Assembly (NCBI GenBank): GCA_014377485.1
Contig: JACMPM010000080.1
Span: 1-35,098, forward strand
Length of the DNA stretch: 35,098 bases
Direction: 5' to 3'
From: Bacteriovorax sp.
GTDB taxonomy: Bacteria > Bdellovibrionota > Bacteriovoracia > Bacteriovoracales > Bacteriovoracaceae
Positions 7,362 to 35,098 of this stretch are shown here, one piece after another. Positions within the stretch are counted from its first letter, which is position 1. The number at the start of each line of letters is the position of its first letter. The translations under genes were made by a program, and so were the position numbers. Below the pieces are notes generated by a model. The model was not told the DNA's origin and searched no databases. It saw only the letters and a program-made list of their open reading frames with translations.

Positions 7362-7362
7362 A

Positions 7363-14415: not shown

Positions 14416-14459
14416 ATTCCTTAAAGAGTTTCGTTGTAATCCCGATTTAACTAACGAAT

Positions 14460-14498: not shown

Positions 14499-16916
14499 AT
14501 GGTAACTAATTACGAGGGTGACAACATAGAACTAAAAGATCATCTCCCTCTCCTGCCAATTAGGGACATAGTGGTTTACCCGTTTATGATTTTACCTTTT
14601 TTTGTAGGACGCGACTCCTCAATTCAAGCTGTAGATCATGCGCTTAACAAATCTGATCGACTCATTCTTCTTGCTAGCCAAAAAGATATGAAGGCAGAAG
14701 CCCCAACTCCGGATGAAATCTACGAGACGGGAACTATTGCAATGATCATGAGAATGAGAAAGTTGCCAGACGGAAGAGTAAAAATTCTTGTACAAGGGCT
14801 CTCGAAAGCTCGCATCACAGAATTTACTCAAGAAGCCCCTTACTTTATGTGTAAGCTGATGAAAGTCTCAGATGTGGCCATTGAAGAAAACAATGTTGCC
14901 GCAAATGCCTTAATGAGAAATATCCGTGAACAACTTGAAAAAGTTATTAACATGGGAAAAATTCTATCCCCTGATATTTTGATGATTTTAGAAGATATCA
15001 AAGATGCGGGAAGACTTGCAGACCTGGTTGCATCAAACCTTAATCTTCATGTTGCAGAAGCACAAACCATACTTGAAACACTTGATCCAATGGAACGCCT
15101 CCATAGAATCAACGATATCCTCTCTCGCGAATTAGAAATTCTAGCAATGCAAAATAAAATTAAAAGCACTGCAAAAGAAGAAATTTCTAAAACTCAAAAA
15201 GAGTATTTCCTTAGAGAGCAAATTAAAGCAATCAAATCAGAACTGGGTGATGAATCCCAAAAAGATCCGGATGATGAATTTGGTGAAATAAAAGAAAAAA
15301 TTAAAAAAGCCAAAATGAGTGAGGAAGCTGAAAAAGAAGCAACCAAACAAATTCTCCGTTTAGAAAAAATGCATCCTGATTCTTCAGAGGCATCAATTCT
15401 TAGAACTTATCTTGAATGGATGTGTGATTTACCTTGGAGTAAATCAAGTCCAGAACATATCGACCTTGATGCTGCACTTGAAATTTTAGATGAAGATCAT
15501 TTTGATCTCTTTAAAGTAAAAGAAAGAATTTTAGAATACCTAGCAGTTAGACAATTAAAAGGACCTGGCATGAAAGGGCCAATCCTTTGTTTCTCTGGAC
15601 CTCCCGGTGTTGGTAAAACTTCTCTTGGTAAATCTATTGCCAAAGCATGCGGAAGAGAATTTGTTCGCATCTCTCTCGGTGGTGTAAAAGATGAAGCTGA
15701 GATCAGAGGTCACCGACGAACTTATGTTGGAGCAATGCCAGGTCGTTTCATCCAAGCTCTTAAGCAAGTAAAAACTAATAACCCGGTTATCCTTTTAGAT
15801 GAAGTAGATAAATTGGGAGGCGACTTCAAAGGTGATCCTTCATCGGCACTTCTTGAAGTTCTAGATCCAGAACAAAATAGTGCTTTTAGAGATCATTACC
15901 TGAATATTCCTTTTGATTTATCAAACGTAATGTTCATTGCAACGGCAAACGTGCTCGACCAAATCCCTGCTCCACTTAGAGACAGGATGGAGATCATCAA
16001 CCTATCTGGCTATACTCAGGAAGAAAAAGTTGCGATCTCGAAAAAATACATCATTCCAAAACAAATGGATGAAAACGGAATCAATGAAAAGCATATTGCT
16101 TTTACTGATGACGGTGTAGCGAGTGTAATAAAAGGCTACACGGCTGAAGCAGGCCTTCGTAATCTTGAAAGAAAAATCGGAGCCATATGTAGAAAAGTAG
16201 CAATGAAAATTGCTAAAGGTGAAGCAGAGCAAACTCACATCATGACAGAGACAGTCTTTAAACTTTTAGGACCTCCTGTTTATACCAAAGATGATGAAAA
16301 AGATTGTGATGAAGTTGGAGTAGCAACAGGTCTGGCATGGACCTCTCACGGTGGTGAAGTTCTTTATATTGAAGCCACAAAGATGAAGGGAAGAGGTTTA
16401 ACTCTTACCGGTCAACTTGGTGACGTCATGAAAGAATCTGCTCAAACTGCGATTGGATACATTAGAAGTCAGGCAGCTGAACTTCATATTGATGAAGAAA
16501 TTTTTGAGAAGCATGAAATACATATCCACCTTCCGGCCGGAGCTACTCCGAAAGACGGACCAAGTGCAGGTATCACGCTTGCGACAACTATTGTTTCTCT
16601 TTTAACTAATACTCCAATCAGCCGCGATGTCGCGATGACAGGGGAAATCACCCTGACTGGTAAAGTTTTACCAATCGGTGGATTAAAAGAAAAAGCACTA
16701 GCTGCAATGAGAATGAATATCAAAACAATCATCATTCCTTGGAAAAATAGAAAAGACCTGGAAGAGATCCCGGAAGAATACAGAGCAAAACTAACTTTCA
16801 TACCGGTTAAAACTATCGATGAAGTTTTGGATGTAGCTCTAGTTGGATGGAAAGAGAAAAAGAAGAAGAAAGCTTACGCTCGAAACAAAGAATCTTTGCC
16901 GCCTGCAGCTGCTTAG
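14499..16916 (+). CDS. lon: ATP-dependent protease La (Lon)
   Basis: 805 residues. The N-terminal LON substrate-binding domain begins at LPLLPIRDIVVYPFM. The AAA+ module has Walker A GPPGVGKT (367-374), the Lon-specific RISLGGVKDEAEIRGHRRTY stretch and Walker B VILLDEVDK. The C-terminal protease domain has the catalytic Ser689 in PKDGPSAG and Lys732 in GGLKEKALAA, 43 residues apart as in the E. coli enzyme. It degrades misfolded and regulatory proteins in the cytoplasm. GGAGGA precedes the ATG by seven bases. The C-terminus has a short Lys-rich then Ala/Pro tail. A strong terminator follows. It is divergent from glmU. Confidence 0.97.
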   Translation: MVTNYEGDNIELKDHLPLLPIRDIVVYPFMILPFFVGRDSSIQAVDHALNKSDRLILLASQKDMKAEAPTPDEIYETGTIAMIMRMRKLPDGRVKILVQGLSKARITEFTQEAPYFMCKLMKVSDVAIEENNVAANALMRNIREQLEKVINMGKILSPDILMILEDIKDAGRLADLVASNLNLHVAEAQTILETLDPMERLHRINDILSRELEILAMQNKIKSTAKEEISKTQKEYFLREQIKAIKSELGDESQKDPDDEFGEIKEKIKKAKMSEEAEKEATKQILRLEKMHPDSSEASILRTYLEWMCDLPWSKSSPEHIDLDAALEILDEDHFDLFKVKERILEYLAVRQLKGPGMKGPILCFSGPPGVGKTSLGKSIAKACGREFVRISLGGVKDEAEIRGHRRTYVGAMPGRFIQALKQVKTNNPVILLDEVDKLGGDFKGDPSSALLEVLDPEQNSAFRDHYLNIPFDLSNVMFIATANVLDQIPAPLRDRMEIINLSGYTQEEKVAISKKYIIPKQMDENGINEKHIAFTDDGVASVIKGYTAEAGLRNLERKIGAICRKVAMKIAKGEAEQTHIMTETVFKLLGPPVYTKDDEKDCDEVGVATGLAWTSHGGEVLYIEATKMKGRGLTLTGQLGDVMKESAQTAIGYIRSQAAELHIDEEIFEKHEIHIHLPAGATPKDGPSAGITLATTIVSLLTNTPISRDVAMTGEITLTGKVLPIGGLKEKALAAMRMNIKTIIIPWKNRKDLEEIPEEYRAKLTFIPVKTIDEVLDVALVGWKEKKKKKAYARNKESLPPAAA

Positions 16917-17879: not shown

Positions 17880-18062
17880 TTATTTGCTGATTGTTTTTAC
17901 GCCTTCTTTTGTTACTTCAGTTTCATCCGCCGCTACAACTTTTGCTTCTCTTTTAGAAGTTTGGCTTGCGTAAGGACATTCACCTTTTTGGTCTTCGCCA
18001 ACTTCTGCTGACATTGCTCTTAAGGTAAAAAATAGAAGAGATGCGATTACTAATGCTTTCAT
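17880..18062 (-). CDS. Small exported protein, 60 aa (paralogue A)
   Basis: A 60-residue precursor with signal peptide MKALVIASLLFFTLRAMSA and predicted cleavage before EVGEDQK. The mature part (about 41 residues) has a single Cys in GECPY. It aligns without gaps over its full length with the 60-residue protein at 18728-18910, sharing the pattern E(V/L)GEDQK(G/S)ECP(Y/F), then SKR(E/D)AK and a terminal ISK. AGGGAG sits six bases before the ATG. A strong sigma-54-type promoter lies at 18107-18126. Family unknown; the conserved charged motif and single Cys are the only handles. It is probably periplasmic or secreted. Confidence 0.8.
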   Translation of the reverse strand: MKALVIASLLFFTLRAMSAEVGEDQKGECPYASQTSKREAKVVAADETEVTKEGVKTISK

Positions 18063-18106: not shown

Positions 18107-18126
18107 ATTTGCAGGCATCGTGCCAA
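18107..18126 (-). promoter_or_regulatory. Sigma-54 (-24/-12) promoter for the 17880 gene
   Basis: On the minus strand TTGGCACGATGCCTGCAA matches the sigma-54 consensus YTGGCACGRNNNTTGCW at all fixed positions but one (CTGC for TTGC), with the required ten bases between GG and GC. The predicted transcript start is about 36 bases before the ATG at 18062. Sigma-54 promoters need an enhancer-binding activator. Confidence 0.75.
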
Positions 18127-18727: not shown

Positions 18728-18910
18728 TTATTTGCTAATTCCTTTAGTTCCTTCAATTACAGCGTCTGATTCAACTGCTTCAACAGGTTTTGCATCTCTT
18801 TTAGAAGATTGATTCAAAAAAGGACATTCACTTTTTTGGTCTTCTCCAAGCTCAGCTGAAAATACGTTTAAAGAAATTATAGAGATCGTGATTAAGATTA
18901 AAAGTTTCAT
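18728..18910 (-). CDS. Small exported protein, 60 aa (paralogue B)
   Basis: A 60-residue precursor: signal peptide MKLLILITISIISLNVFSA, cleavage before ELGEDQK, then SECPF, SSKRDAK and a terminal GISK. It aligns residue for residue with paralogue A (17880-18062). ATG 18910 is chosen because AAGGGG lies seven bases upstream; an upstream in-frame Met at 18943 lacks a ribosome site and would spoil the signal peptide. A GG-N10-GC sigma-54-type promoter lies at 18943-18960 and a palindrome 71 bases above it. A terminator follows, so the gene is a single transcription unit. Function unknown. Confidence 0.8.
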   Translation of the reverse strand: MKLLILITISIISLNVFSAELGEDQKSECPFLNQSSKRDAKPVEAVESDAVIEGTKGISK

Positions 18911-18942: not shown

Positions 18943-18960
18943 ATGCACATGGGATGCCAG
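18943..18960 (-). promoter_or_regulatory. Sigma-54-type promoter for the 18728 gene
   Basis: CTGGCATCCCATGTGCAT on the minus strand keeps TGGCA, the ten-base GG-to-GC spacing and TGCA, though it departs from consensus at several positions. The predicted start is about 24 bases before the ATG. Occurrence before both paralogues makes chance less likely. Confidence 0.55.
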
Positions 18961-19047: not shown

Positions 19048-19578
19048 CTATAGACACATTTGATTACTTGGCTCTACTTTGCAGAGAAGCTTTATTTCCC
19101 TATTCAAGTTGATATTAGAGGCTTTAATGATTGAGCCCAAGTCGTCTATTTTGGCTTGTAGAGCTTCGGCTTCATCTGTGGACAAATCGGCCATTAGTGA
19201 AGTCAGAACGGACGTAGAAGTCGATATACCCCCAATAAAGGTAGCTATTTTTACAACCTTAACTTCGTTCTTAAAATGATAAGAAGCAATCGCACCGCCA
19301 AGTAGGGTTAAGGCAGTAATTGTATCAGCGACTTTCCTGCTGTTTAAATATATTTTTTTATGGCTGGGAGTTTTTTTAGCTATTTCAAGGGCAGTATTTA
19401 AAACTGAGAGTTGAACATTTAATTCTTTCATTGATTTTTTCAAGATGTAGATACTCTCAAGCCTTTCTGTCATATCTGAATCTACAACTGCAGAAACTCG
19501 AGAAGCGCCAAGCGCCTCAGAAAACACGTTTGTGACGAGCATAGTAATAAACAATAAAAAAGTAACAGTAGTTTTCAT
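19048..19578 (-). CDS. Exported protein with helical and two hydrophobic segments, 176 aa, unknown
   Basis: Not recognised. It starts with signal peptide KTTVTFLLFITMLVTNVFS. Residues about 35-70 (SDMTERLESIYILKKSMKELNVQLSVLN) look like an amphipathic coiled helix. Two hydrophobic stretches follow: about 85-102 (ITALTLLGGAIASYHF) and about 112-130 (IATFIGGISTSTSVLTSLM), which could be a membrane hairpin. A second helical stretch leads to a C-terminus with two Cys (LLCKVEPSNQMCL). The ribosome site is weak and distant. It lies between the small exported-protein island and the Tad operon and shares their strand. Possible roles (periplasmic structural or membrane-inserting protein) are speculation. 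Confidence 0.7.
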   Translation of the reverse strand: MKTTVTFLLFITMLVTNVFSEALGASRVSAVVDSDMTERLESIYILKKSMKELNVQLSVLNTALEIAKKTPSHKKIYLNSRKVADTITALTLLGGAIASYHFKNEVKVVKIATFIGGISTSTSVLTSLMADLSTDEAEALQAKIDDLGSIIKASNINLNREIKLLCKVEPSNQMCL

Positions 19579-19659: not shown

Positions 19660-19697
19660 TAAAAAATATCAAGACTGCCTAAAAATTAGACAGTCTT
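19660..19697 (-). terminator. Intrinsic terminator after the Cys-rich gene (end of the Tad unit)
   Basis: AAGACTG, a one-base mismatch, CTAA, loop AAA, TTAG, CAGTCTT form a stem at 19671-19697; on the minus strand it is followed by GATATTTTTTA. It lies 16 bases after the stop at 19713. Confidence 0.8.
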
Positions 19698-19712
19698 AAA
19701 ATATTTTTAAAC

Positions 19713-19979
19713 TTAGTGTCCTACTGTTTTTGTTCCAGTCGCACCAGCAGCGTCTACTGAGTCAGTAGTTGGTTTTGCACCACCAGTACCAACGATTCCT
19801 GCACATTGAGTTTCTTTCTGGCTAGAGGCTGGATCATTACATTTTCCATCCTTTAAAGAGTAAGAAGGGTTCAAGGCTTTACAATCTGCTTCTACTTTAC
19901 ACTCACCACCAAGTGTACATGTTCCAGCGTAAACTGAAGTCATTGCCATCATCATCATAACTGTCATAAAAATTTTCAT
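19713..19979 (-). CDS. Small Cys-rich exported protein, 88 aa
   Basis: Not recognised. AAGGAG precedes two adjacent ATGs; the second (19979) has the better six-base spacing. The signal peptide is Met-rich (KIFMTVMMMMAMTSVYA) with cleavage before GTC. The mature protein has five Cys (TC, GEC, DC, KC, QC) within 45 residues, compatible with a disulphide-stabilised fold, and a Gly/Thr/Ala-rich C-terminal tail ending KTVGH. It follows the Rhs-repeat gene by 40 bases and precedes a terminator, so it is probably the last gene of the Tad-Rhs transcript. Confidence 0.75.
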   Translation of the reverse strand: MKIFMTVMMMMAMTSVYAGTCTLGGECKVEADCKALNPSYSLKDGKCNDPASSQKETQCAGIVGTGGAKPTTDSVDAAGATGTKTVGH

Positions 19980-20019
19980 CATTATCTCCTTCGTCCATCG
20001 ACACTACTGTATCGGTAAA

Positions 20020-21648
20020 TTACATATTTAAATTAACACCTGCGGGCTTAACAATACTTAAAAGGGACTGGAAAGCTTGGGTAACCTGAAGAGCCATCTT
20101 CGCCCCTGCTTTTGATTCTACTTTTTTTATCTCGCCGTAGTTATCGTAAGCAACGTTAATGATCCCAACATTTTCCATTTCGATTTCGACTGGTTTACCC
20201 ATTGAATTGTATTTAAATGAAAGCGTTCGACGTGATTTCTCATCATTCTTTTCCTGGTCGATCATTTTAGTGATCTTACCAGCACGGTCGTAAATCAAGA
20301 GAACCGATTTTCCAGAGCTATTAACGGCCTTAGAAAGATTTCCAGTTTTGTCGTATTGAAAAGTAGTCCAGCCTTCGTTGTTTACAACTTTTGTAATCTT
20401 GTTAATTTTGTCATCATAATCAAGTTGAACGAATTCACCTTTAGTAGATGTTTTCTTAGTAAGAAGTCCTTTAGCATTGTACTCAAAAGTTGTTACGTCT
20501 TTACCGCGAGTAATTTTTAAAGGAAGCGAGCAACATTCAGAGTAGATCGTCTCAGTCTTAATCCCATCGAGCTCAGTTGCAATTCTATAAGTATATTGCT
20601 GACCATCTGGTTTAGATTTAATTTCATATTCATAACGGCTAACTGATTCTGGACCATCAGCAGGTTTTTTAGAAACAGTCGTCCAGTAATGAAGGTCTGG
20701 ATTTTTAGGATTGTTTTCGTATTTATACTTTGTAGACTCTCCGTTTCTCTCAACCACTTCAGTTGCAAAAGAGTTCTTGTCGTACTTAATATGCATCTTA
20801 GAGTTATCAACATAAGTGATAGTTGTTAAATTATGGTTACCATCGTATTCATATTTGTAACTATTTCCACCAACGTCTACACTTTGAATTAAGTTTCCTT
20901 TAGGGTCATAAGTATAATTGGTTTTTTTATCACCTGCAGAAGATGCACTTTTAATTTTTCCATCCGCATACCACTCTAAGAGAATTTGTTTCGCTTGAGT
21001 GTCCTTGATTGCGGTAACTTGATTAGCCTTGTATTCGAACAAGATTGCATATCCATTTTTATCTGTGATTTTTGTAAGTTTTCCGTCGTTATCAAAAAAG
21101 TCTGTGCGCCCATCAGAGTTACTTCTTTTGTATCCATCTTTTTCTTTAACGATTGTTTGGATACCGCGGTCATTTGAATAAAGAGTTGTGCCATCTGCCA
21201 GCTTGGTTTCAACATTGTATTTTTTTGAATAAGCTTGGCGAATTTCAGCATCGTTATTTAATCGAGTAATCAATGCCTGCACAGCTGATTCACTCATTGG
21301 CTCTTTCTTTTTCATTGCTTCAACAATTTTCTTCGAAGCAGATTCAACATTCACAGCTTCTTTCGGTACGAAACGCGTTTGCGCTCCTGAACCGTTTTCA
21401 ATTACAACAACAGATCCGTCAGCCGAAACAACTAACTTCGTTTCATAGAGTGATCCCCAACCAAACCCAAACCAGCCATTTTCAATTGATTTTGCATTGT
21501 ATGTTCTAGTCACTTCTAAGTCATGATCCCCACCGGGAACGATGATATCAGTGTACGTAATATAAAAGTTTCCGTTCTTTAAATTCACCCCTCCGAGAGC
21601 TACCAGCGGTAGCAACAAAAGAGCAATCAGTACTTTTTTTAAATTCAT
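20020..21648 (-). CDS. Exported YD/Rhs-repeat protein without a toxin domain
   Basis: 542 residues. A signal peptide (residues 1-19, NLKKVLIALLLLPLVALG) is followed by VNLKNGNFYITYTDI and HDLEVTRTYNAKS, the start typical of DUF6531/Rhs modules, with GWFGFGWGSLYE next. From about residue 170 to 500 there are tandem YD repeats of the form TDKNGY, FEYKANQVTAIKD, YTYDPKGNLIQSV, YEYDGNHNLTTI and QYDKTGNLSKAV, which build the beta-strand shell of Rhs proteins. No C-terminal toxin or RHS core-ending motif is seen; it ends KPAGVNLNM. It starts 62 bases after tadB with no terminator in between, so it is probably co-transcribed with the Tad genes and may be a surface or secreted partner. Confidence 0.87.
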   Translation of the reverse strand: MNLKKVLIALLLLPLVALGGVNLKNGNFYITYTDIIVPGGDHDLEVTRTYNAKSIENGWFGFGWGSLYETKLVVSADGSVVVIENGSGAQTRFVPKEAVNVESASKKIVEAMKKKEPMSESAVQALITRLNNDAEIRQAYSKKYNVETKLADGTTLYSNDRGIQTIVKEKDGYKRSNSDGRTDFFDNDGKLTKITDKNGYAILFEYKANQVTAIKDTQAKQILLEWYADGKIKSASSAGDKKTNYTYDPKGNLIQSVDVGGNSYKYEYDGNHNLTTITYVDNSKMHIKYDKNSFATEVVERNGESTKYKYENNPKNPDLHYWTTVSKKPADGPESVSRYEYEIKSKPDGQQYTYRIATELDGIKTETIYSECCSLPLKITRGKDVTTFEYNAKGLLTKKTSTKGEFVQLDYDDKINKITKVVNNEGWTTFQYDKTGNLSKAVNSSGKSVLLIYDRAGKITKMIDQEKNDEKSRRTLSFKYNSMGKPVEIEMENVGIINVAYDNYGEIKKVESKAGAKMALQVTQAFQSLLSIVKPAGVNLNM

Positions 21649-21710
21649 AAACCCAAGTCCTTGTTAATAAAAAAATCCATTTAATATTTCGGTCGTTTAT
21701 CTTTTTTACT

Positions 21711-22601
21711 TTAAACCTTTATTTTTACAATTTTCATTATAACGTAAATACCTGCTAAATCGAAAAGAACTGCAAAAAACAGCATGATAAAACCAATTAT
21801 TGTTGTAAATAGTGGAGTCATTGAAGCGGGATCTTGTAGATAATAAATTAGTCCTAAGGCGTACGGCATGGCCCCGATAACCATCCCCTGAAACATTCCA
21901 GATGCAGTAAAAGTATCAATTTTCTGCTGCAATCTTACCCGCTCGCGAATTACGTCAACGATAGTGTCAAAAGTTTCAGCAAGATTACCTCCGGTTTCTC
22001 TTAAAATGTTTATAGATGAGACAAACATATCGTTGTCTTCAGTTGGTACTCTTTTTGCCAAGTTTTCAAAGCATTCTTCCAAGGGTACACCGATGCGATT
22101 TTGTTGAAGGATAATATTAAATTCTTGAGAAATTGGTGCAGGCATTTCATCAACGATCATGCCAAGAGATTGTGGCACTGAGAGCCCGGCGCGAATTCCA
22201 TTGGCAAGCAGTTGAAGGGCGTCCACCATTTGTAGGGAATAGGCTTTGATTCTTTTCTCCACCAAAAAATTAACAATCATCCGAGGAGCCTTAAAACCTA
22301 TGAACGCGAGAATACTTCCTAAAATAGTTCCAATAATCCACGATCCTAAAAATCCAAACAGTAAAAAAATAAAAGAGCCAAGTCCTACAGAAGATCCAAG
22401 TAAAATATAAGTAAGCCGATCTTGGGGAATTTCAATAAAAAGAAATTCCAATTTTTCCATGATGTAAGTTCGAGTTCCATATGTTTGATGTTCAACCCAG
22501 TCAAAAATATTCACCGAGTATTTGTAGCTTAAGGCAAATATTAAAATTCCCACCAAGAAGATGAGTCCTTTTAAGCCAATAAGATCTATAAATATACTCA
22601 T
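21711..22601 (-). CDS. tadB: Tad pilus inner-membrane platform protein TadB (T2SSF family)
   Basis: 296 residues with membrane helices near the N-terminus (about 10-28), around 67-105 and two at the C-terminus (about 235-290). The cytoplasmic T2SSF domain lies at about 130-230 with LQLLANGIRAGLSVPQSL and FVSSINILRETGGNLAETFDTI, characteristic of TadB/GspF-type platform proteins. It supports pilus assembly by the CpaF/TadA ATPase. It follows the ATPase gene by 12 bases. Tad loci normally encode a second copy, TadC, next to tadB; here the next gene is the Rhs-repeat protein instead. Confidence 0.9.
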   Translation of the reverse strand: MSIFIDLIGLKGLIFLVGILIFALSYKYSVNIFDWVEHQTYGTRTYIMEKLEFLFIEIPQDRLTYILLGSSVGLGSFIFLLFGFLGSWIIGTILGSILAFIGFKAPRMIVNFLVEKRIKAYSLQMVDALQLLANGIRAGLSVPQSLGMIVDEMPAPISQEFNIILQQNRIGVPLEECFENLAKRVPTEDNDMFVSSINILRETGGNLAETFDTIVDVIRERVRLQQKIDTFTASGMFQGMVIGAMPYALGLIYYLQDPASMTPLFTTIIGFIMLFFAVLFDLAGIYVIMKIVKIKV

Positions 22602-22613
22602 CTTGCTAGTACC

Positions 22614-24863
22614 CTATTTTTTCACTAGAGGTTTTCCTGGCGGAGTTGAAGCTGGCCCTCCACTTCCAGAAGCAGGTCTTGCTGCACTTGCCGTCGGAGA
22701 TGGTATTGCCGCCGGTGCAGCTGCTGTTACTGCAGCTGGTGTTGCCGTTCCAGGGGGACGATTGCTAAAAATTCCACGTGGAACGTTGAAGCCTTTCTTC
22801 TCAAGCACTTCAATAAATTTGGGAATAAATCCTGTTGCTTGAAACTCGCCTACAATTTTTCCATTTTTATCCATGTCTTTTTGAACGAAGAGAAAAATAT
22901 CCTGCAATATCATCGTGTCACCTTGAAGTCCGCCTACCTCAGTGATGTACATAATTTTTCTACTTCCATCATCCAACCTCGATTGTTGAATAATTAAATG
23001 AACTGCCCCAGCAATCATTTCTTTAATAGCCCGAGCTGAAATAGATGTTCCTGCATATTGAACTAAAGTTTCTAGTCGACCAATACACTCGCGAGGATTA
23101 TTAGAATGGACAGTTGTCATTGAACCATCATGTCCTGTCCCCATCGCTTGAAGCATGTCTAGTGTTTCACCACCGCGACACTCACCAACAACAATTCTAT
23201 CAGGCCGCATACGAAGAGTTTGCTTAACAAGACATCGAATATCGATTGCCCCATCACCTTCTAGCGATGGAGGACGAGTTTCAAGCCTGACAATATGTTC
23301 TTGTGGAAAATTTAATTCTGCAGAATCTTCGCAAGTAATAATACGCTCATTAGATTGAATAAATCCGCCAAGAATATTAATAAGAGTAGTTTTACCGGAG
23401 CCAGTACCGCCAGAGACAATAATATTTCGATGTGCCTCAACAGCAATTCGAAGAAAGTCGGCCATACTTTCAGTCATTGATCCAAACTTAACCGCATCTT
23501 TGTAAGTTAGGCGCTTGTCAGGGAATTTACGAATGGTAATTGTACAACCATCAATTGATGATGGTGGAATGATTGCGTGAACGCGTGAACCATCGCGAAG
23601 ACGAGCATCTACGTATGGAGTCTTTTCATCAATTCGACGTCCGATAGGTGCAACGATTCTTTCAATAACGTTTAAAACCTGGCGATCGTTTGTAAAAGTA
23701 ACATCTGAAAGTTTTAATTTACCGCTTTGTTCATAATAAATCTTATAAGGACCAACGACCATAATCTCTGAGACTGTCTTATCCCGCAAAAGATCTTCTA
23801 GCGGACCAAGGCCCAGGGCTTCATCAATTATTTCTTTTACGATTTGATTCATATCTTCTCTTGAATTGAGCACAGCTTTTGTGTCTTCTTTTCCTAAGAG
23901 ATCAACGACAACTTTTTTAGTCTGCTCTTTTAAAATAATTTGAGCTTTGGGATCGTTCTCATCAGTTTTCTTTAAATCCATCTCTTCAACAAGTGCTTTA
24001 TGGATACGAGACTTTAATTCTGTCCAAGGGGTTTTTCCACCTTTTATCGGAACTCCAGACGCATCTTTAGCTTCTTCTTTTTTTCCGCCGGCGTCTGTTG
24101 GCTTTGTAAGTTTTTCCAACGTTTTTAAAACGTTTTTTTCATTCAATCGTCTAACGGTATCGATTATTCCCTTAGCGAAAGGACTTCCTCTTGCCACTAA
24201 CATGACTGGTTTTTTTTGATTAAGTGCTAAGGTGCAATTCTGATCATCTTTTGCAATTGCAGAGAAGACGGACTTACCCAAAGTTTTTGCAATCACATCA
24301 TTGGTAACAGGATGTCCTTGTTGAGCTTGATTCACAATAAATTGAATCATGTCTTTAGGAAACATCATGGTAACCAGATCAGAATACATACGCTTTGTTT
24401 GATTAAGCGCTAAAATATCCGGGGTCACTACAACTAAAATCAGTGTTGAATATTCAAGTGCCTTAATTGCAAGTGGAGTTAATTCATTTCCAGCATCGAT
24501 TATTGTTACAGGATAAATATTCGTAACGGCCTTTAGAGTTCGCCCGAGTGCTTCAACTTCAATTCCATTTGAAGCTGTAGGATCGCTAGGCATTCCAATA
24601 TAGTAAACATTTTGATTCATACTTACGAATTGTTGAATTGAGTTGGGATCTATTGCACCTTTAAATTCTGCAAGTTCTTTTATGTTCTTCTTTCCCTTCA
24701 TACCTGTAATAAAATCTTGATCACCACTGGCTTTTTGATCGAAATCTAAAAGCAGAGTTTTCACTTTTCCTTCAATGGCATAAGCAAATGCAAGGTTCGC
24801 GGCTACTTGAGATTTACCCAATCCGCCCTTTCCACCAATAATAGAAATTATATGTCCGGCCAT
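22614..24863 (-). CDS. Fusion of CpaE/TadZ (MinD-like) and CpaF/TadA secretion ATPase
   Basis: 749 residues with two ATPases in one chain. Residues 1-255 are MinD/ParA-like: deviant Walker A KGGLGKS (12-18), LLLDFDQ, and IIDAG (121-125), as in CpaE/TadZ, which localises the pilus machine; its usual N-terminal receiver-like domain is absent. A charged linker (255-285) follows. Residues about 285-690 are a CpaF/TadA pilus-assembly ATPase: Walker A GGTGSGKT (485-492), Walker B RIVVGECRGGE and TGHDGSMTTVHSNNP. The last 50 residues are an Ala/Pro/Ser-rich low-complexity tail. AAGGAG lies nine bases upstream of the ATG, inside the end of the secretin gene. The two functions are usually separate adjacent genes. 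Confidence 0.93.
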   Translation of the reverse strand: MAGHIISIIGGKGGLGKSQVAANLAFAYAIEGKVKTLLLDFDQKASGDQDFITGMKGKKNIKELAEFKGAIDPNSIQQFVSMNQNVYYIGMPSDPTASNGIEVEALGRTLKAVTNIYPVTIIDAGNELTPLAIKALEYSTLILVVVTPDILALNQTKRMYSDLVTMMFPKDMIQFIVNQAQQGHPVTNDVIAKTLGKSVFSAIAKDDQNCTLALNQKKPVMLVARGSPFAKGIIDTVRRLNEKNVLKTLEKLTKPTDAGGKKEEAKDASGVPIKGGKTPWTELKSRIHKALVEEMDLKKTDENDPKAQIILKEQTKKVVVDLLGKEDTKAVLNSREDMNQIVKEIIDEALGLGPLEDLLRDKTVSEIMVVGPYKIYYEQSGKLKLSDVTFTNDRQVLNVIERIVAPIGRRIDEKTPYVDARLRDGSRVHAIIPPSSIDGCTITIRKFPDKRLTYKDAVKFGSMTESMADFLRIAVEAHRNIIVSGGTGSGKTTLINILGGFIQSNERIITCEDSAELNFPQEHIVRLETRPPSLEGDGAIDIRCLVKQTLRMRPDRIVVGECRGGETLDMLQAMGTGHDGSMTTVHSNNPRECIGRLETLVQYAGTSISARAIKEMIAGAVHLIIQQSRLDDGSRKIMYITEVGGLQGDTMILQDIFLFVQKDMDKNGKIVGEFQATGFIPKFIEVLEKKGFNVPRGIFSNRPPGTATPAAVTAAAPAAIPSPTASAARPASGSGGPASTPPGKPLVKK

Positions 24864-24865
24864 TT

Positions 24866-26353
24866 TTATCGGCTCCTTTTTCGAAACTTTCTTTCAATAT
24901 CAGAAGCACCAGTTGCTGCTGATTCTATTAATTCTGGAGTTACAAACATTACGAATTGCGTTCGACTGGTTGAATACTTTTTTGATTTTACAAACGAAAA
25001 CAAGGGCGTCCCATCTGTAATCGCAAGTGGGTCGACTTTATCAAAATCAGTTGAAGTGTTATTGGTCACAACCCCCCCGATAACTGCCGATTCTTGAGAC
25101 TTAACAATAATTTGAGTATCAACTGTATTATCGAGCGTCCGAGGTGGAGCATCATTTGAAGCTGAAGAAACATGGATAACTATTTTTAAATTAATTTTTT
25201 CTTCTTGAAGCATGGTCGGAGTGATATTCATATCAAATCCCGCCACGGCAGATCCAGCTTTGGCATTGTCGGCAGTTCCAATTTGGTAAGGTATCGTTGT
25301 TGTTTTTTTAATAGAACCTGCAATGTTTTCTTTAACGACAACCACTCCAGATTCTACAACCCGGGCATGTCCTGCACTTTTAGCCGAGTCTAGTTTGGGA
25401 AAGAGATGTGAGATCGTTGCAGCTAAGGCTCCAGACGAAGACGTCGTTACACCTCCACTATTACTTTTTCCAATACCAATTTCCCCACCTGTTCCGCCAA
25501 TTACTGGTGTCCATTGAAAAGAAAAAAGACGGTCATATCCTTTAGTTAATTCTACAAACTGAGCAGTAATTTTAAATAACTTTGGCAATGGCTCTTGCTT
25601 TGGCTTTGAATTAAAAGTTAAAAGAATTTCATAAGGACGTTTTTTTATCGATTGAACTGCATCGGTTCTTCTCGCTAAGTTTTGAATTTGATCTGGTAAA
25701 TAAGCGTTAACAATTTGTTCAACTCTTTTAATATCTTCTTCTGAACCGACAACACCTTCTATCCAAAAACTTCCATTCACAACTCTCACGGTAACATCTT
25801 TAAAATTACTTTTTTGAATTTCTTCTTGCATTTTTCTAGCAATAATTAATTGCGTCTGCGGAGAAAGTTCTACCAATCTTAAAACGTCCGGGTATTTATC
25901 TAAAATAACAACGACTTTACCAATATCGCTGGGAACAACAATTTGTCCGCCGACATATACGGCATCACCCTTTATACCAATTTCCAATCCCTCAACGTCA
26001 TTTAATAATTCTTTTAATTGAACAACTACTTTAGATTGATCAGACGCTGTAACTTTTACCAAATAACGAGCACGAATATCACCGGCAGTATCTCGCAATG
26101 TTAAAGTTGTCTCTCCGGCCTTTAAACCTGTCAGAAGAACTTGTTTTTTCGATGGAACAATTTGGTAACTAGCAAGATTTTCATTTGCCAGCTTAACTAC
26201 GCTATTGGGAACAAAGTCTAGTTTGATAATTTTTTCTAAACCAACAACAACATCAACTTCTTTTAAAGCTTCGTCCTTACTAACATCATCTTGAGCAATC
26301 AAGCTCAAGCTGAGAAGGCAAAAGATAATTAAAGAGCAAAACTTATTGAGCAT
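24866..26353 (-). CDS. cpaC: Tad pilus outer-membrane secretin CpaC/RcpA
   Basis: 495 residues from ATG 26353, which overlaps the end of cpaB by 11 bases; an upstream extension is open but disrupts the signal peptide. Signal peptide LNKFCSLIIFCLLSLSLIA. Residues about 33-100 match the pilus-formation N-terminal domain (VGLEKIIKLDF, LTGLKAGETTLTLRD). Residues about 165-225 form a BON-type domain (VRVVNGSFWIEGVV). The C-terminal half is the secretin pore domain, with FDMNITPTML and the closing VIGGVVTNNTS, PLFSFVKSKK, FVMFVTPELI. It forms the gated ring through which the Flp pilus crosses the outer membrane. Confidence 0.92.
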   Translation of the reverse strand: MLNKFCSLIIFCLLSLSLIAQDDVSKDEALKEVDVVVGLEKIIKLDFVPNSVVKLANENLASYQIVPSKKQVLLTGLKAGETTLTLRDTAGDIRARYLVKVTASDQSKVVVQLKELLNDVEGLEIGIKGDAVYVGGQIVVPSDIGKVVVILDKYPDVLRLVELSPQTQLIIARKMQEEIQKSNFKDVTVRVVNGSFWIEGVVGSEEDIKRVEQIVNAYLPDQIQNLARRTDAVQSIKKRPYEILLTFNSKPKQEPLPKLFKITAQFVELTKGYDRLFSFQWTPVIGGTGGEIGIGKSNSGGVTTSSSGALAATISHLFPKLDSAKSAGHARVVESGVVVVKENIAGSIKKTTTIPYQIGTADNAKAGSAVAGFDMNITPTMLQEEKINLKIVIHVSSASNDAPPRTLDNTVDTQIIVKSQESAVIGGVVTNNTSTDFDKVDPLAITDGTPLFSFVKSKKYSTSRTQFVMFVTPELIESAATGASDIERKFRKRSR

Positions 26354-27170
26354 TATTTTTATTCTCTTTAGTGTATTTATCATTGAAGAAAATTTTCGCT
26401 TCTGAAGCATCTTCTCCAAGTACATCGTAAATCTGTGTTGCTTTCAATCGTACTGGCTCTTTATCAGCATTATTTCTAAGTGCTAGAGATAGTGTTCCGT
26501 TTCCGTAGGCTTGAATAAATGAAAGCTTTTGAACATCATAAGGATCGAGCTCAAGCGTGATTGTATTGTAAGAAGTGTATGTATTTAAATTCATCGTACG
26601 AATAACTTTTGGCGTCTCAACACCGTAGATAGGAATAGAATTAGTCATACTCATCCCAGTTGAGAGAACTAAAACGTCTTGCAGAATGGTTCTTGTTTTT
26701 TGTAAATCTTTTCTTGCACCTTGTGAAATATCGATTGCAGCAAGAACATCAACTCTGTCCCCTGGCTTAATCAATCTTCCTACGGCATCTCTCTCCGTAA
26801 TATTAATTGCAACAGCACGTTTACCAACTGAAACCTGTCTCGATAAACCCGTTTTAATTCCGGGATAAGTAACTCTTGGTTTTGTAATCTGCTCGCCTTT
26901 AATAATTGGAACAGTCGCGATTGTATTTTCTAAATCTTTTACAGATTTAAAATGTCCTGGTGCTAGAAAATTTTCTGGAACAGTTTTTACTTCAATTTTT
27001 GAATCGTCTATTAAATCTAATTCTTGAATATCTACTTTTGCGACGATGACAGAACTTTGAGTTCCGTAGTCCTTAATCATTGCTGCTCTTTGATCTTCGA
27101 TATATGTGTAGACCATCATCATGGCAAAACCTGCAATAATGAGTGCCAGAGTCAGAGCGCGTGTGTTCAT
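26343..27170 (-). CDS. cpaB: Tad pilus assembly protein CpaB/RcpC
   Basis: 275 residues starting at ATG 27170 (AGG-type ribosome site upstream; a TTG nine bases earlier is less likely). One N-terminal membrane helix (TLALIIAGFAMMMVYTYI). A SAF domain follows (IVAKVDIQELDLIDDSKIEVKTVPENF), then the RcpC/CpaB core with VGKRAVAINITERDAVGRLI and GDRVDVLAAI. CpaB proteins sit in the periplasm and support the secretin and pilus passage. The gene overlaps cpaC by 11 bases and follows a 72-base gap after the pilin-like 27250 gene, where no clear terminator is seen. Confidence 0.9.
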   Translation of the reverse strand: MNTRALTLALIIAGFAMMMVYTYIEDQRAAMIKDYGTQSSVIVAKVDIQELDLIDDSKIEVKTVPENFLAPGHFKSVKDLENTIATVPIIKGEQITKPRVTYPGIKTGLSRQVSVGKRAVAINITERDAVGRLIKPGDRVDVLAAIDISQGARKDLQKTRTILQDVLVLSTGMSMTNSIPIYGVETPKVIRTMNLNTYTSYNTITLELDPYDVQKLSFIQAYGNGTLSLALRNNADKEPVRLKATQIYDVLGEDASEAKIFFNDKYTKENKNNAQ

Positions 27171-27249
27171 TTTTTCCAACCTATTTAAATAACTAGCTTT
27201 TAAATTCTAGCAAACTTTGGTCATTTTTTACGGAGGGGAAGATTTTGCA

Positions 27250-27771
27250 CTAGTGCCCCATTGTGCAACTAACAGTCAGAGCTTGAACGTGTGGATCGAT
27301 ATCGTAATAGCCTTTATCATCTAGAGGTGTTTGGGTGTAATTATAATAAGGCCCGCATACACCGTAAAAGGTAAAAAGTCGGATAAACCTGCTCGAGAGC
27401 TCAACTTCAGATTTACCACCGCATGTTTCAGTCGAATCATTTTTCAATAGAGATGAAAATTGAAAACAGGGAGCAACTGAAATTTTTCCAGCTAAATGAT
27501 CTTTCCATCCGAGTGAATTGAAACCAACTCTCGTAATACTCTCTTCCTTATATTTTCTAAGATCGACCAAAGGAACGATATATGAGTTTCCTTTTACTAA
27601 AGTATAGAAGTATCCCCTAACTGCTTTTTGTTGGTTAATTGAACCGCTGATAGAATTCCCGGCAGTGTAGTAAATAGTGTAGAGAAACATTAGGAAAGGT
27701 AAAAATAAAATCATCTCAAAAAGAGCTTGTCCTTTTTGATTGAGAATTTTTTGATAGTCATTTTTTTTCAT
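27250..27771 (-). CDS. TadE/TadF-like pseudopilin, 173 aa
   Basis: A short cytoplasmic leader ends in KGQALFEM, the G-Q-x-x-x-E prepilin-type motif, followed by a hydrophobic helix (ILFLPFLMFLYTIYYT). The remaining periplasmic part has four Cys (APCFQF, ETCGG, GVCGP, VSCTM) and aromatic residues. This is the plan of the TadE/TadF minor pseudopilins, though the periplasmic sequence is not one I can match. It starts two bases after the preceding TadE-like gene and belongs to the same unit. Glu is followed by Met rather than Tyr or Phe. Confidence 0.75.
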   Translation of the reverse strand: MKKNDYQKILNQKGQALFEMILFLPFLMFLYTIYYTAGNSISGSINQQKAVRGYFYTLVKGNSYIVPLVDLRKYKEESITRVGFNSLGWKDHLAGKISVAPCFQFSSLLKNDSTETCGGKSEVELSSRFIRLFTFYGVCGPYYNYTQTPLDDKGYYDIDPHVQALTVSCTMGH

Positions 27772-27773
27772 TT

Positions 27774-28301
27774 TTACCCACCGTTATCATCCAAGGTCGC
27801 TTGAGTTTCACAGCCACCTTGAGTTACTGCTTTTATGGCATAGCAAATCTGACTAACCGATTCTGCACGTGTTGGCTCCCTACCTAAAAAAGATTCTGAG
27901 CGAAAGACCACTTGATCTTTTCCACCGACAAATCCCAGTGAAAAAGCTTGGTTAAATTCTACCCATATGCCGACAAATACAGAGAAGGCGACTTTGTCCG
28001 GACTATTTTCATTTTTTGCTTCTAATACTACGTTGGGAGTAATTAATCCTTCCGGAAGATTTTTTCTAAAGACTTCTTTTGCGACTTCAAATGCTCGAGA
28101 ATCTCCTGCACCTGGACTCCCATACTGTTCAGCATCTCCAACTAAATAAGCCCGTGAGGCCATAAAAGTCGCATGGTGAACCATATAACCATTGGTGTAG
28201 TTAAGGGCCATTTTTAGAAATAGAAAAATGAATCCGACAGCGGCGGTAAAGGTCAAAATAAACTCAATTGTCGATTGGCCTTTATTATTTTTTTGTTTCA
28301 T
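27774..28301 (-). CDS. TadE-family pseudopilin, 175 aa
   Basis: NNKGQSTIEFILTF gives the G-Q-x-x-x-E-F cleavage-type motif and the start of a transmembrane helix (to about residue 30), as in TadE proteins. The following ALNYTNGYMVHHATFMASRAYLVG stretch is also TadE-like (a helix of A and R residues after the membrane segment). Two Cys lie near the C-terminus (QICYAI, GGCETQ). Minor pseudopilins of this type are processed by the CpaA/TadV peptidase and help initiate Flp pili. The ATG overlaps the preceding stop (ATGA), indicating translational coupling. Confidence 0.82.
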   Translation of the reverse strand: MKQKNNKGQSTIEFILTFTAAVGFIFLFLKMALNYTNGYMVHHATFMASRAYLVGDAEQYGSPGAGDSRAFEVAKEVFRKNLPEGLITPNVVLEAKNENSPDKVAFSVFVGIWVEFNQAFSLGFVGGKDQVVFRSESFLGREPTRAESVSQICYAIKAVTQGGCETQATLDDNGG

Positions 28302-28630
28302 GGAGGATAAGCCTCAGTACCCGAAAAGAAATGACTGCTATTATCAGCGGCATTATAATAAGTATCGTGTTTATTATTTGTGTAATCAAAATCCATTTTT
28401 TCTTCGTACGAAACTTCTTTTTTATAATCTAAACCATAACGGTAAGAATAACTTATTCCTCTTTTCATAACGGCAAACATACCGTCTTTGCCGGCAAGAA
28501 AGCTTTTGAATCTTTTATTATTATAAAAAGTATAACTAAGAGAACTTATAACTGCTAAAAGCAGAATATATTCCACAGCAGTTTGCCCAAGATTGTTTCT
28601 TAGTAACCTAAGATTGAATGATTTTGCCAT
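28298..28630 (-). CDS. Short pilin-like protein of the Tad locus, 110 aa
   Basis: The motif LGQTAVEYILLLAVI matches the Flp signature G/xxxxEY followed by a hydrophobic helix, but the protein extends about 70 residues further with a charged, Tyr-rich tail (YSYRYGLDYKKE, DTYYNAADN), unlike a standard Flp pilin. It may be a minor pilin. Start ATG 28630 gives a short leader; ATG 28645 is the alternative. Either start lies inside the 3' end of the prepilin peptidase gene (overlap 31 or 46 bases). The stop overlaps the next start by four bases. Confidence 0.75.
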   Translation of the reverse strand: MAKSFNLRLLRNNLGQTAVEYILLLAVISSLSYTFYNNKRFKSFLAGKDGMFAVMKRGISYSYRYGLDYKKEVSYEEKMDFDYTNNKHDTYYNAADNSSHFFSGTEAYPP

Positions 28631-29109
28631 CCGAACCACATCCATGCGATAAAGATTACTGGTGCGTAAGTAAATTTTTTTCCAAAAATTTTCCTAATTC
28701 CTTTCACATCACCAATTCTTACTAATAATACAATTTTATCGAAATTTTTGAGAGCATTAAATAATAAAAGTGAACTCCCGACGATCACCGTCGTGTATAA
28801 GAGATATAAGAAAACCATATCTTGAAATTCAAAAGGTATTAAAAGATAGAGCGAAGAAAGATATTTCGAATCTCCTCCTCCCATAATATTCAACGCAAAT
28901 AATGCAAAACCTACCAGGAGAAATGCAACGGGAAAGAGCATTACGCTGAAGCTCCAGACGTAAAGTTTGGGGTAGACAATTGTGAGTAGGGAAAAAAAGG
29001 CGAAATTGATGAGTAGCCATACGTTCGAAATTTTTCTTGTTTTGAAATCTACGTAAGCGACAACTAACAACTGGATGGAAAGAAAAATAAACACCATCAT
29101 TGGCATCAT
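28600..29109 (-). CDS. cpaA: Prepilin peptidase CpaA/TadV (A24 family)
   Basis: 169 residues with about five membrane helices. The two catalytic aspartates of A24 prepilin peptidases are present: D21 in YVDFKTRKISN and D80 in MGGGDSKYL (the GxGDxK motif). There is no N-terminal methylase domain, as usual for Tad loci. It cleaves the leaders of Flp and the TadE-like pseudopilins in the inner membrane. AGGGA precedes the start; several Met codons lie at the N-terminus (29109, 29106, 29100). The first ATG overlaps the stop of the preceding pilin-like gene by four bases. Confidence 0.9.
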   Translation of the reverse strand: MMPMMVFIFLSIQLLVVAYVDFKTRKISNVWLLINFAFFSLLTIVYPKLYVWSFSVMLFPVAFLLVGFALFALNIMGGGDSKYLSSLYLLIPFEFQDMVFLYLLYTTVIVGSSLLLFNALKNFDKIVLLVRIGDVKGIRKIFGKKFTYAPVIFIAWMWFGWQNHSILGY

Positions 29110-29333
29110 TTTTTTGTTCCCTGATTACTGTATCCAGTGAAGAAGCATTCTTTTGCGCATACACCAACCGTGAATTGTTCAGTTAGTTCATAACCCATAA
29201 AGCCCACAGAACTTAATAGAGTTTTGCCTAGCCCCTTCACCATGCTGATTGTAATGAAGGTCATAAAGCTAAATATTAGAAGGTATTCAATGAGAGCCTG
29301 CCCTTTGTCTCTCATTTTTATTTTAATTGTCAT
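29106..29333 (-). CDS. Short Flp-like pilin or pseudopilin, 75 aa
   Basis: MRDKGQALIEYLLIFSFM carries the Flp/TadE G-Q-x-x-x-E-Y motif and a hydrophobic helix. The C-terminal part includes two Cys (GVCAKECFF) absent from the main Flp protein. The start at 29333 gives a 10-residue basic leader before the Gly; Met7 (29315) would leave only a few leader residues. No clear Shine-Dalgarno is visible. Its stop overlaps cpaA. It is separated from flp by about 100 bases in which only a weak AT-rich near-palindrome (AGTTTT/AAACCT) was seen, which might cause partial termination. Confidence 0.75.
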   Translation of the reverse strand: MTIKIKMRDKGQALIEYLLIFSFMTFITISMVKGLGKTLLSSVGFMGYELTEQFTVGVCAKECFFTGYSNQGTKK

Positions 29334-29434
29334 GATTTAAAGATTAGAGATTGAAGCTATTGGCGCAATAGGAGGCAAACAATGCCGTAGCACTATTTGT
29401 GTAGATGGTAGTTACGACGAAAGGTTTTTTAAAA

Positions 29435-29623
29435 CTATTCTGTCTGAATACCGTCGACCATCTTATCTGCTTTACCAAAAACGGCTTGAGTTAAACCATC
29501 GAGCTTCGAGCCCGCAGTAGTTTTAAACTTAAAAACGATCATCGCGACAACCGCGACAAGCAGAATATACTCTGTAGACGTCTGCCCACTCTCGTCTTTC
29601 AAATAGGCTATTACCTTTTTCAT
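29435..29623 (-). CDS. flp: Flp-family type IVb pilin
   Basis: 62 residues: basic leader KKVIAYLKDES, cleavage motif GQTSTEY (G/xxxxEY), hydrophobic helix ILLVAVVAMIVFKF and a short polar tail rich in Lys and Asp. This is the size and plan of the major Flp pilin assembled by Tad machines into adhesive bundles. AGGAGAAGGA lies just upstream of the ATG, a strong ribosome site fitting high expression. It is the first gene of the Tad operon, with its promoter region in 29624-29835, divergent from the 6S-like RNA. Confidence 0.92.
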   Translation of the reverse strand: MKKVIAYLKDESGQTSTEYILLVAVVAMIVFKFKTTAGSKLDGLTQAVFGKADKMVDGIQTE

Positions 29624-29694
29624 ATTGTCCTTCTCCTCATGCAGATACTCGCTGGTTAACTTCTCGGTAATCTTCAGCGAAATCTTTAATCCTT

Positions 29695-33178: not shown

Positions 33179-34015
33179 TTAACCTTGTAGTAGTTTAAGA
33201 GCTGAGTTCGGGGACTGATTCGCTTGCGATAACACTGAAACTCCGGCCTGTAGAAGAATATTATTCTTTGCCAGTTCTGCAGTTTCAGAAGCTACATCCA
33301 CATCTCTAATTCTCGAGTTGGCAGCAGATAAATTTTCATCGCTGACTTCAAGATTGTTAGTGACCGACTGTAACCTATTCTGAAGGGCTCCAAAGTTTGC
33401 TCTCGTTCCGTTGATGTGCACTAAAGCGTCATCAAGTTTTTTAAGCGAAGCTTGTGCTCCTTCTTTCGTAGACACCCCATCCACCGCCAAGCCTAGTGCT
33501 TCTAAGGATGCGTCCGCTCCTGCTCCGTCGTAGTGAAGTCTATCGAGGAGAGGATCATTTTTTATACCAACCTGAAATTCGAGTTTTCCGCCTGTACCAT
33601 CGAGAAGTTTTATTCCGTTAAATTCTGTAGATTTTGAAATTCTATCTATCTCTTCTTTGAGATTTTGAAATTCAATATCCGAGAATCCCCTCTCTGTAGT
33701 TCCCACTGTATCTGAAGCGGCCTGGACTGAAAGTTCTCTAAGTCTGATAATCATACTCGAGATCTCGTTCATCCCACCTTCTGCCACTTGTAACATTGAG
33801 ATAGCGTCGCCAGCATTTCTTTTGGCTTGTCTCATTCCTCTAATGCTTGCTTTTAAGTTTTCACTTATTGCTAATCCCGCTGCATCGTCACCGGCCCTAG
33901 TTATACGTTCACCAGAAGATAACTTTCTTAGGTTATCATTTTGTGCTCTGGAATTGATTCCTAAAGATCTCTGTGCTGATAGCGACGGAATATTTGTATT
34001 TATTCTTAAACCCAT
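33179..34015 (-). CDS. Flagellin (paralogue 1)
   Basis: 278 residues from ATG 34015, with AAAGGAG eight bases upstream. The N-terminal D0/D1 region has GLRINTNIPSLSAQR, KLSSGERITRAGDDAAGLAISE and the C-terminal region ANFGALQNRLQS, NLSAANSRIRDVD and a closing ALKLLQG. The variable D2/D3 region is almost absent, so this is a minimal flagellin. It is exported by the flagellar type III apparatus and polymerises into the filament. It lies downstream of a second flagellin on the same strand with a 200-base gap containing an inverted repeat, so it probably has its own promoter. A terminator follows. Confidence 0.96.
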   Translation of the reverse strand: MGLRINTNIPSLSAQRSLGINSRAQNDNLRKLSSGERITRAGDDAAGLAISENLKASIRGMRQAKRNAGDAISMLQVAEGGMNEISSMIIRLRELSVQAASDTVGTTERGFSDIEFQNLKEEIDRISKSTEFNGIKLLDGTGGKLEFQVGIKNDPLLDRLHYDGAGADASLEALGLAVDGVSTKEGAQASLKKLDDALVHINGTRANFGALQNRLQSVTNNLEVSDENLSAANSRIRDVDVASETAELAKNNILLQAGVSVLSQANQSPNSALKLLQG

Positions 34016-34052
34016 TTTTAATCTCCTTTCATACAAACCTTCCTGGTAATAC

Positions 34053-34215: not shown

Positions 34216-35064
34216 TTAGCGTTGAGCAGCTGCCTGGATTAAAGCTAGTGCCGAGTTAGTACTTGAGTTAGCTTGCGAAAGCACACTCGTACCAGCTTGC
34301 ATTAAAATGTTTTGTTTCGTTAATTCTGCAGTTTCTGCAGCGACATCTGTATCTCTTACACGAGAGTTTGCAGAAGATAAGTTTTCAATACTTACTTGAA
34401 TATTGTTAACTGTTGACTGCAATCTGTTTTGTAGAGCACCGAAGTCTGCTCTAATACCTGATACTGAAATGATCGCTTGATCAATTGAAGTAAGAGAGTT
34501 CTGAGCTGAAATTTTATCAGATACAGAAGCTAAATTTAATCCAAGTGCAGCAACATTAACGTCAGCTGAAGATGCATCAAATGTTAATCTGTCTGAGATA
34601 GGATCGTTACGAGTACCAATTTGAATATCAAACACTGCACCAGTCCCGTTCAGTAATGGTACGCGGTTAAATTCTGTAGAGTTTGCGATACGATCAACTT
34701 CCGAAGTTAACTGTTCAAATTCCACGTTAAGGAATTTTCTTTCTGTACCACCGATAGTATCAGAAGCTGCTTGGACTGATAGTTCGCGAAGTCTGATAAG
34801 GATGTTTGAAACTTCCCCTAACGCCCCTTCCGCGATTTGAACTAATGAAATACCATCTTCAGCATTTCTTTCAGCTTGGCCCAGACCTTTGATCTGTGCT
34901 TTTAAATTTTCTGAGATTGCGAGACCGGCAGCATCGTCACCAGCTCTGTTGATTCTTTGTCCTGAAGAAAGTTTCTCCAAAGACTTGTTCATCGAAATTC
35001 TAGTTGAACCTAGATTTCTTTGTGCGTTTAAAGACGCAACGTTCGTGTTAATTCGAAGTCCCAT
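34216..35064 (-). CDS. Flagellin (paralogue 2)
   Basis: 282 residues from ATG 35064, with AAGGAGG five to six bases upstream; an in-frame extension to the window edge has no ribosome site. It shares GLRINTNVASLNAQR, KLSSGQRINRAGDDAAGLAISE, FGALQNRLQS and NLSSANSRVRDTD with paralogue 1, and ends ALALIQAAAQR. The central variable part is again very short. Like its neighbour it forms the flagellar filament core; multiple flagellin genes are common in Bdellovibrio-type bacteria. The promoter region lies at or beyond the window end. No clear terminator follows it. Confidence 0.96.
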   Translation of the reverse strand: MGLRINTNVASLNAQRNLGSTRISMNKSLEKLSSGQRINRAGDDAAGLAISENLKAQIKGLGQAERNAEDGISLVQIAEGALGEVSNILIRLRELSVQAASDTIGGTERKFLNVEFEQLTSEVDRIANSTEFNRVPLLNGTGAVFDIQIGTRNDPISDRLTFDASSADVNVAALGLNLASVSDKISAQNSLTSIDQAIISVSGIRADFGALQNRLQSTVNNIQVSIENLSSANSRVRDTDVAAETAELTKQNILMQAGTSVLSQANSSTNSALALIQAAAQR

Positions 35065-35098
35065 ACATCCTCCTTGATTTCTGGTCTGAAAGAACATC

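Follow-up and report, generated by a model that had tools for sequence, protein, structure and literature searches.

What does an exported Rhs-repeat protein do at the end of a set of genes for a Tad (type IVb) pilus machine? The question is raised by a stretch of 35,098 nucleotides (nt) from Bacteriovorax sp. (assembly GCA_014377485.1, contig JACMPM010000080.1; hereafter the window), in which such a set runs on the minus strand throughout 29623–19713, from flp1 through further pilin and tad genes to tadB, a gene for the Rhs protein and a gene for a small Cys-rich protein. A terminator scan found no terminator in the 62-nt gap between tadB and the Rhs gene, and the strongest terminator of the window, an intrinsic one with a 14-pair stem (19669–19699, minus strand), lies directly 3′ of the Cys-rich gene and closes the Rhs–Cys-rich unit. 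A first-pass annotation of this DNA had described the layout correctly in all these respects and had not recognized the cluster as the known hit locus (Bd0108/Bd0109). Sequence comparison supports well the identification of the cluster as the hit/TAD locus of predatory Bdellovibrionota, in a Bacteriovorax version; the cluster itself is thus a known locus and not a new assembly. A phylum-wide arrangement of small exported proteins downstream of the Rhs gene, the sigma-54-type promoters of one class of them, and a re-reading of a published hit-locus RNA appear to be new in the literature surveyed.

The Rhs gene (20020–21648, minus strand) encodes an exported Rhs/YD-repeat protein of 542 residues without a toxin domain, the orthologue of Bd0109, with which it aligns over its whole length (33% identity over 555 columns, 2e-102). 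A profile search of Bdellovibrio bacteriovorus HD100 gave a single match, and Bdellovibrio genomes gave one match each, at about 1e-190. Of 369 genomes sampled in the phylum, 342 hold a member of the family (228 of the 235 of good quality), and tadB lies directly upstream of an Rhs gene of about 540 codons in 65 of 70 loci phylum-wide, so the adjacency is not due to chance. The five loci without tadB beside the Rhs gene are second copies (L052 and L060) and those of three genomes of one phylum family, f9 (L063, L067 and L074), which has the Rhs gene without an adjoining tadB. Two Rhs copies were found in a genome taken as that of B. exovorus JSS, for which two have been reported (PMC4267844). 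The HD100 locus was confirmed by published primers, which map to the expected genes, and by the small protein next to Rhs, which carries the Bd0108 residues N32, D36, A52, C56, C59, R81, K84 and Q101 named in PMC4267844.

Identification with hit connects the cluster to a body of published work. B. bacteriovorus transcribes bd0108 and bd0109 together with tad genes, and the two products form a pair that influences both piliation and prey-independent growth (PMC3818213, PMC4267844); the dissociation constant of Bd0109 and the disordered Bd0108 is 45 μM (PMC4267844). Mutations in bd0108 alter piliation and growth, while a deletion of bd0109 was not obtained, even for prey-independent growth (PMC3818213). 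The TAD operon is expressed in attack phase, is controlled by FliA and is required for prey invasion (PMC5430801).

The Rhs protein carries a signal peptide, a DUF6531 domain and RHS repeats (Pfam). Its AlphaFold model, built from an alignment of 53 relatives, has a mean predicted local distance difference test (pLDDT) score of 88.6 and matches the Rhs cores of type VI secretion system (T6SS) effectors with a Z of 28 over about 415 residues, as well as teneurins and Tc shells; low-Z matches to LptD and OspA were taken as common beta arrangements. The protein is about half the size of the usual Rhs-core shell. A cut-down toxin was considered and rejected, because the autoprotease motif DPxG(L/W/F/M) is absent from all 53 Rhs sequences and the C-terminus is conserved, with a helix followed by PAGVNLN-stop in place of a variable toxin end. 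As modeled, the protein is an exported half-shell without a toxin, and no effector. The toxin-less, signal-peptide-bearing Rhs shell of the first-pass annotation is therefore upheld, and two of the roles proposed for it are not: the conserved end and the missing autoprotease motif speak against an effector carrier, and a Sec-type signal peptide in place of a pilin (prepilin) signal speaks against a tip adhesin.

The Cys-rich gene (19713–19982, minus strand) begins 37 nt after the Rhs stop and encodes an exported protein of 89 residues with a signal peptide and five Cys residues. Structure prediction, which had been proposed as a check and served the Rhs protein alone well, gave a low-confidence model of this protein alone (pLDDT 55.6), with a predicted disordered tail. 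To place the gene, we surveyed 107 regions downstream of Rhs genes for open reading frames (ORFs) of 45–135 residues with a Shine-Dalgarno sequence and a signal peptide. Such an ORF starts no more than 250 nt past the Rhs stop in 84 of the 107 regions, against one in antisense and none in shuffled sequence; at 250–1300 nt, 71 regions hold one, against 16 in antisense. The order tadB, Rhs gene, small exported gene is thus conserved in related genomes. First-position proteins differ in Cys number, and the class includes Bd0108 itself. The later class is of about 60 residues and has exactly one Cys in the mature part in 101 of 105 cases; in both kinds, polar residues abound in the mature part and hydrophobic ones are scarce. 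The window's Cys-rich protein could not be connected by profile comparison to the single-Cys class or to Bd0108, so we call it the positional counterpart of Bd0108 and claim no homology.

Two copies of a 60-residue single-Cys gene follow in the window (18728–18910 and 17880–18062, both minus strand). Between them and the Cys-rich gene sits a gene for an exported protein of 176 residues (19048–19578, minus strand), found in some members of the genus only and belonging to no Pfam family. The window-type single-Cys profile has only two strong places in its own genome, both at the locus, and strong matches of the Bdellovibrio profile are confined to the hit locus in the genomes searched. A weak second match of the latter, kept in both strains, lies at G154:C1:407448-407612 (HD100) and G157:C1:3362761-3362925.

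The single-Cys class is set apart by its promoters. Upstream of the window copies we predict sigma-54-like promoters, TGGCATCCCATGTGCA (18944–18959, minus strand) for the first and TGGCACGATGCCTGCA (18110–18125, minus strand) for the second. The motif, TGGCAY-N6-TGCA (GG-N10-GC), precedes 87 of 105 later ORFs in strict form and about 100 of 105 in relaxed form, compared with 3 of 84 first ORFs, and it occurs in none of the regions upstream of the Rhs and flp/tad genes. Its GC lies 29–78 nt before the ATG, mostly 36–64, and 100 motifs in sense orientation face 3 in antisense and about 1 per 107 regions in shuffles. For twelve motifs no ORF had been called; 11 of these precede another small single-Cys ORF that was missed by the signal-peptide rule or runs off the stretch, and the motif therefore predicts the gene. 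RpoN (sigma-54) is encoded in all five genomes checked. Genome-wide, TTGGCAY-N6-TGCA occurs 16 times in the window's own genome against 2 for a reversed control, and many of these sites precede genes for exported proteins (L209, L211, L212, L218, L220, L222 and L223).

In HD100, the single-Cys gene falls at a place with a different published reading. A ‘small non-coding RNA’ has been reported at 96455–96716 and is raised in bd0108 mutants (PMC3818213). This span encloses the single-Cys ORF of 66 residues (96483–96683, minus strand), with AAGGAGAG before its ATG and a sigma-54 element at 96743–96758, and both primers used in the reverse transcription PCR (RT-PCR) lie inside the ORF. Between HD100 and its closest relative (G157), 12 of 13 differences fall at codon position 3, with a single nonsynonymous one (p 3e-8); in the species pair G156 and G163, all 15 differences are synonymous (p 1e-10). 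On these substitution patterns, the case that the ORF is a protein-coding gene under purifying selection at the protein level is well supported, and the published RNA would be its mRNA if it comes from the same strand. In PMC3818213, bd0108 was complemented with a construct whose reverse primer stops within the first part of the single-Cys ORF (HD100, L098), so that the construct appears to carry a truncated piece of it. We found no other paper on this RNA, or on a link between Bd0108 and sigma-54, in the open literature, subscription papers and the current RefSeq annotation being outside the search.

Promoters of a second kind are predicted at the head of the cluster and within it. A FliA (sigma-28)-like motif, TAAAGATTTCGCTGAAGATTACCGAGA (29662–29688, minus strand), lies upstream of flp1, and HD100 carries TAAAGAGAATCCCAAAATTATCCGATA at the corresponding place. 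A further predicted one, TAAAGTAAAAAAGATAAACGACCGAAA (21687–21713, minus strand), lies in the tadB–Rhs gap and overlaps the tadB stop. Among loci of the window's family, the motif occurs at the tadB–Rhs junction in 15 of 31 and before flp1 in 8 of 26, and at none of the other internal junctions, with a background of 0.025 per kb and strand. The transcript from flp may thus not be the sole route to Rhs expression. The corresponding gap in Bdellovibrio is about 30 nt and lacks the motif, in keeping with the read-through reported for it. The first-pass annotation, which had treated the genes as one operon, would have been contradicted by a separate Rhs promoter together with loss of the linkage in relatives; the linkage is conserved, in favor of its claim, and the family's own predicted Rhs promoter counts against it. 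Counts from the sigma-70 and terminator scans of the window were not above those of shuffled sequence, and the argument here therefore uses the conserved motifs and the one strong terminator alone. A third FliA-like motif (14422–14447, plus strand) closely precedes a Lon protease gene (14499–16916).

The explanation that best covers these observations, to which we give about even credence, is a hit/TAD locus whose Rhs half-shell binds small exported proteins. FliA, active in attack phase, would drive the flp/tad operon and, in the window's family, the Rhs–Cys-rich unit, which would supply the first-position proteins. In the periplasm, the half-shell may act as a receptor for several disordered exported proteins, binding the mature part of its small neighbor as Bd0109 binds Bd0108, and this binding would set pilus extrusion or retraction and gate growth. 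The sigma-54 class would be produced in another condition, either following prey contact or during growth, as is suggested by the rise of the RNA in bd0108 mutants, and could be a second ligand, or an output, of the same switch. More speculatively, competition between ligands, or their exchange, might report the state of the pilus to the growth decision. On this basis we tentatively propose, with somewhat less than even confidence, a third and phylum-wide hit component: a sigma-54-driven exported single-Cys protein, its mRNA published as a non-coding RNA, that would work alongside the half-shell and the Bd0108-type protein and represent the growth-phase side of a hunting/growth switch. Why Bdellovibrio grows in prey only, and how hit mutations free its growth, has been asked for decades. 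If the ‘RNA’ truly encodes a sigma-54-controlled exported protein, a protein circuit centered on the Rhs shell would replace the small-RNA pathway in the model. The Bd0108-type arrangement had been described as unique to Bdellovibrio; the survey finds it in most of the phylum.

Several points weigh against this proposal. Binding or a phenotype is known for no member outside B. bacteriovorus, the only species in which prey-independent growth and altered piliation upon hit mutation have been described (PMC3818213), and the pilus effect on record is one on type IVa pili, whereas the genes linked to Rhs are of type IVb (Tad). The small proteins are equated on the grounds of position, promoter type, signal peptide and Cys: the window's Cys-rich protein has no detectable homology to Bd0108 (hhalign probability 0.9%), nor do the single-Cys proteins of Bdellovibrio and Bacteriovorax to each other. 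The strand of the RNA is not stated in the text of PMC3818213, two-primer RT-PCR does not fix it, and the ‘F’ primer lies on the plus strand. Finally, enrichment of the FliA-like motif over the whole genome is weak (31 against 19 in the control), and the FliA-like promoters accordingly remain predictions.

Other explanations must be weighed against the same evidence. The small exported proteins could be unrelated to Rhs, as phase-regulated envelope peptides that share a neighborhood; the sigma-54 class has its own promoter, beyond the terminator in the window, and other genomic sigma-54-like sites also precede exported proteins. We nevertheless consider this unlikely, given that strong matches of the single-Cys profiles occur at the hit locus only in the genomes searched, that the position is kept phylum-wide and that Bd0108–Bd0109 binding has been measured (PMC4267844). 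Less likely still is a place for Rhs in the Tad pilus, as a structural component or as cargo at the tip (adhesin or effector carrier), with the Cys-rich protein as its passenger. The conserved linkage to tadB and the Rhs-core fold would suit such a role, as would the exchangeable, many-disulfide tip complexes borne by Kil-type Tad pili (PMC12075869). Those tips, however, are TadEFG-type minor pilins, which are separately present here (27250–28301), while Rhs lacks a prepilin signal and none of the 53 sequences has a toxin domain or autoprotease motif. Deletion of the B. bacteriovorus Rhs gene moreover failed, even for prey-independent growth (PMC3818213), whereas host-independent strains survive a knockout of flp (PMC5430801).

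That the HD100 transcript is a regulatory RNA, possibly of dual function, to which the ORF is secondary, has in its favor its original naming and its rise in bd0108 mutants (PMC3818213). We regard it as the least probable of these alternatives. Nearly all the differences that separate close species are synonymous; reading frame, signal peptide, Shine-Dalgarno sequence and sigma-54 promoter are conserved where the RNA sequence is not; and an Rfam search of the window and the HD100 locus returned no family.

The pilus machine itself accounts for the rest of the cluster, all on the minus strand. The first gene, flp1 (29435–29623; 62 residues), is assigned by position and its Flp-like sequence, as gene 1 of the conserved operon, and is followed by a second flp-like pilin (29106–29333; 75 residues), the prepilin peptidase tadV (28600–29109; Pfam Peptidase_A24, 2e-8) and a third pilin-like protein with a class III signal (28298–28645; weak Pfam match and synteny). 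TadE-like (27774–28301) and TadF-like (27250–27771) minor pilins are recognized by a pilin-type N-terminus and synteny. Next come rcpC/cpaB (26343–27179; NCBIfam pilus_cpaB, 1.7e-48, over the cut-off) and the secretin gene rcpA (24866–26425; Pfam Secretin, 5e-18), both with an uncertain start codon, a tadZ–tadA fusion of a ParA/MinD-like domain to the TadA ATPase (22614–24863; CbiA 1e-12, T2SSE 5e-57) and tadB (21711–22601; T2SSF 5e-17). These matches confirm the Tad machine recognized earlier: the set is complete for Flp pilin, prepilin peptidase, RcpC, RcpA, TadZ/A in one protein, and TadB. The fusion is retained in relatives by locus comparison, and at L058 (G037, 7125–9878) a longer tadZA frame of 917 residues, with no separate tadB found, suggests a TadZ–TadA–TadB fusion. 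The TadC slot beside TadB is taken by the Rhs gene, and another single-domain T2SSF protein is encoded on contig C58 of the same genome; in HD100, TadC (Bd0470) is likewise away from the locus (PMC6561027). Upstream of the cluster lie two flagellin genes (33179–34036 and 34216–35097, minus strand), among nine flagellin matches genome-wide; in a strict scan, no FliA motif was seen ahead of the flagellin gene at 34036.

Among known systems, the Tad-like Kil system of Myxococcus xanthus is, like the window's cluster, a Tad-type machine that includes minor pilins and belongs to a predator dependent on contact, and the relation to predation drawn from it earlier is supported by the Kil-like systems of Bdellovibrionales (PMC8460266). 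Prey killing is known for Kil and not for the window's locus, and a text search of PMC8460266 found no mention of an Rhs gene for Kil. Rhs toxins and the BC shells of Tc toxins share the YD-repeat shell fold of the window protein, at Z 28 to T6SS Rhs cores; the window protein differs in its size of about half, its Sec-type signal peptide, its lack of an autoprotease motif, and its conserved helix and PAGVNLN end in place of a variable toxin C-terminus. In Halobacteriovorax marinus, BMS_0182 with BMS_0183/0184 (PMC4267844) belongs to the same family (Rhs 65% identity) and likewise has two small signal-peptide neighbors, the second with a sigma-54-like promoter, although its first small protein has one Cys and not five. 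The closest described system is the hit locus and TAD operon of B. bacteriovorus (bd0110–bd0119). Unlike it, the window has three flp genes and tadV, as published for Bacteriovorax, a FliA-like promoter for Rhs itself, a Cys-rich protein not detectably homologous to Bd0108, two single-Cys gene copies and the 176-residue exported protein. The two share gene order, the exported Rhs orthologue, a small exported Cys protein just downstream, the FliA-like promoter before flp1 and, farther downstream, an exported single-Cys ORF with a sigma-54-like promoter.

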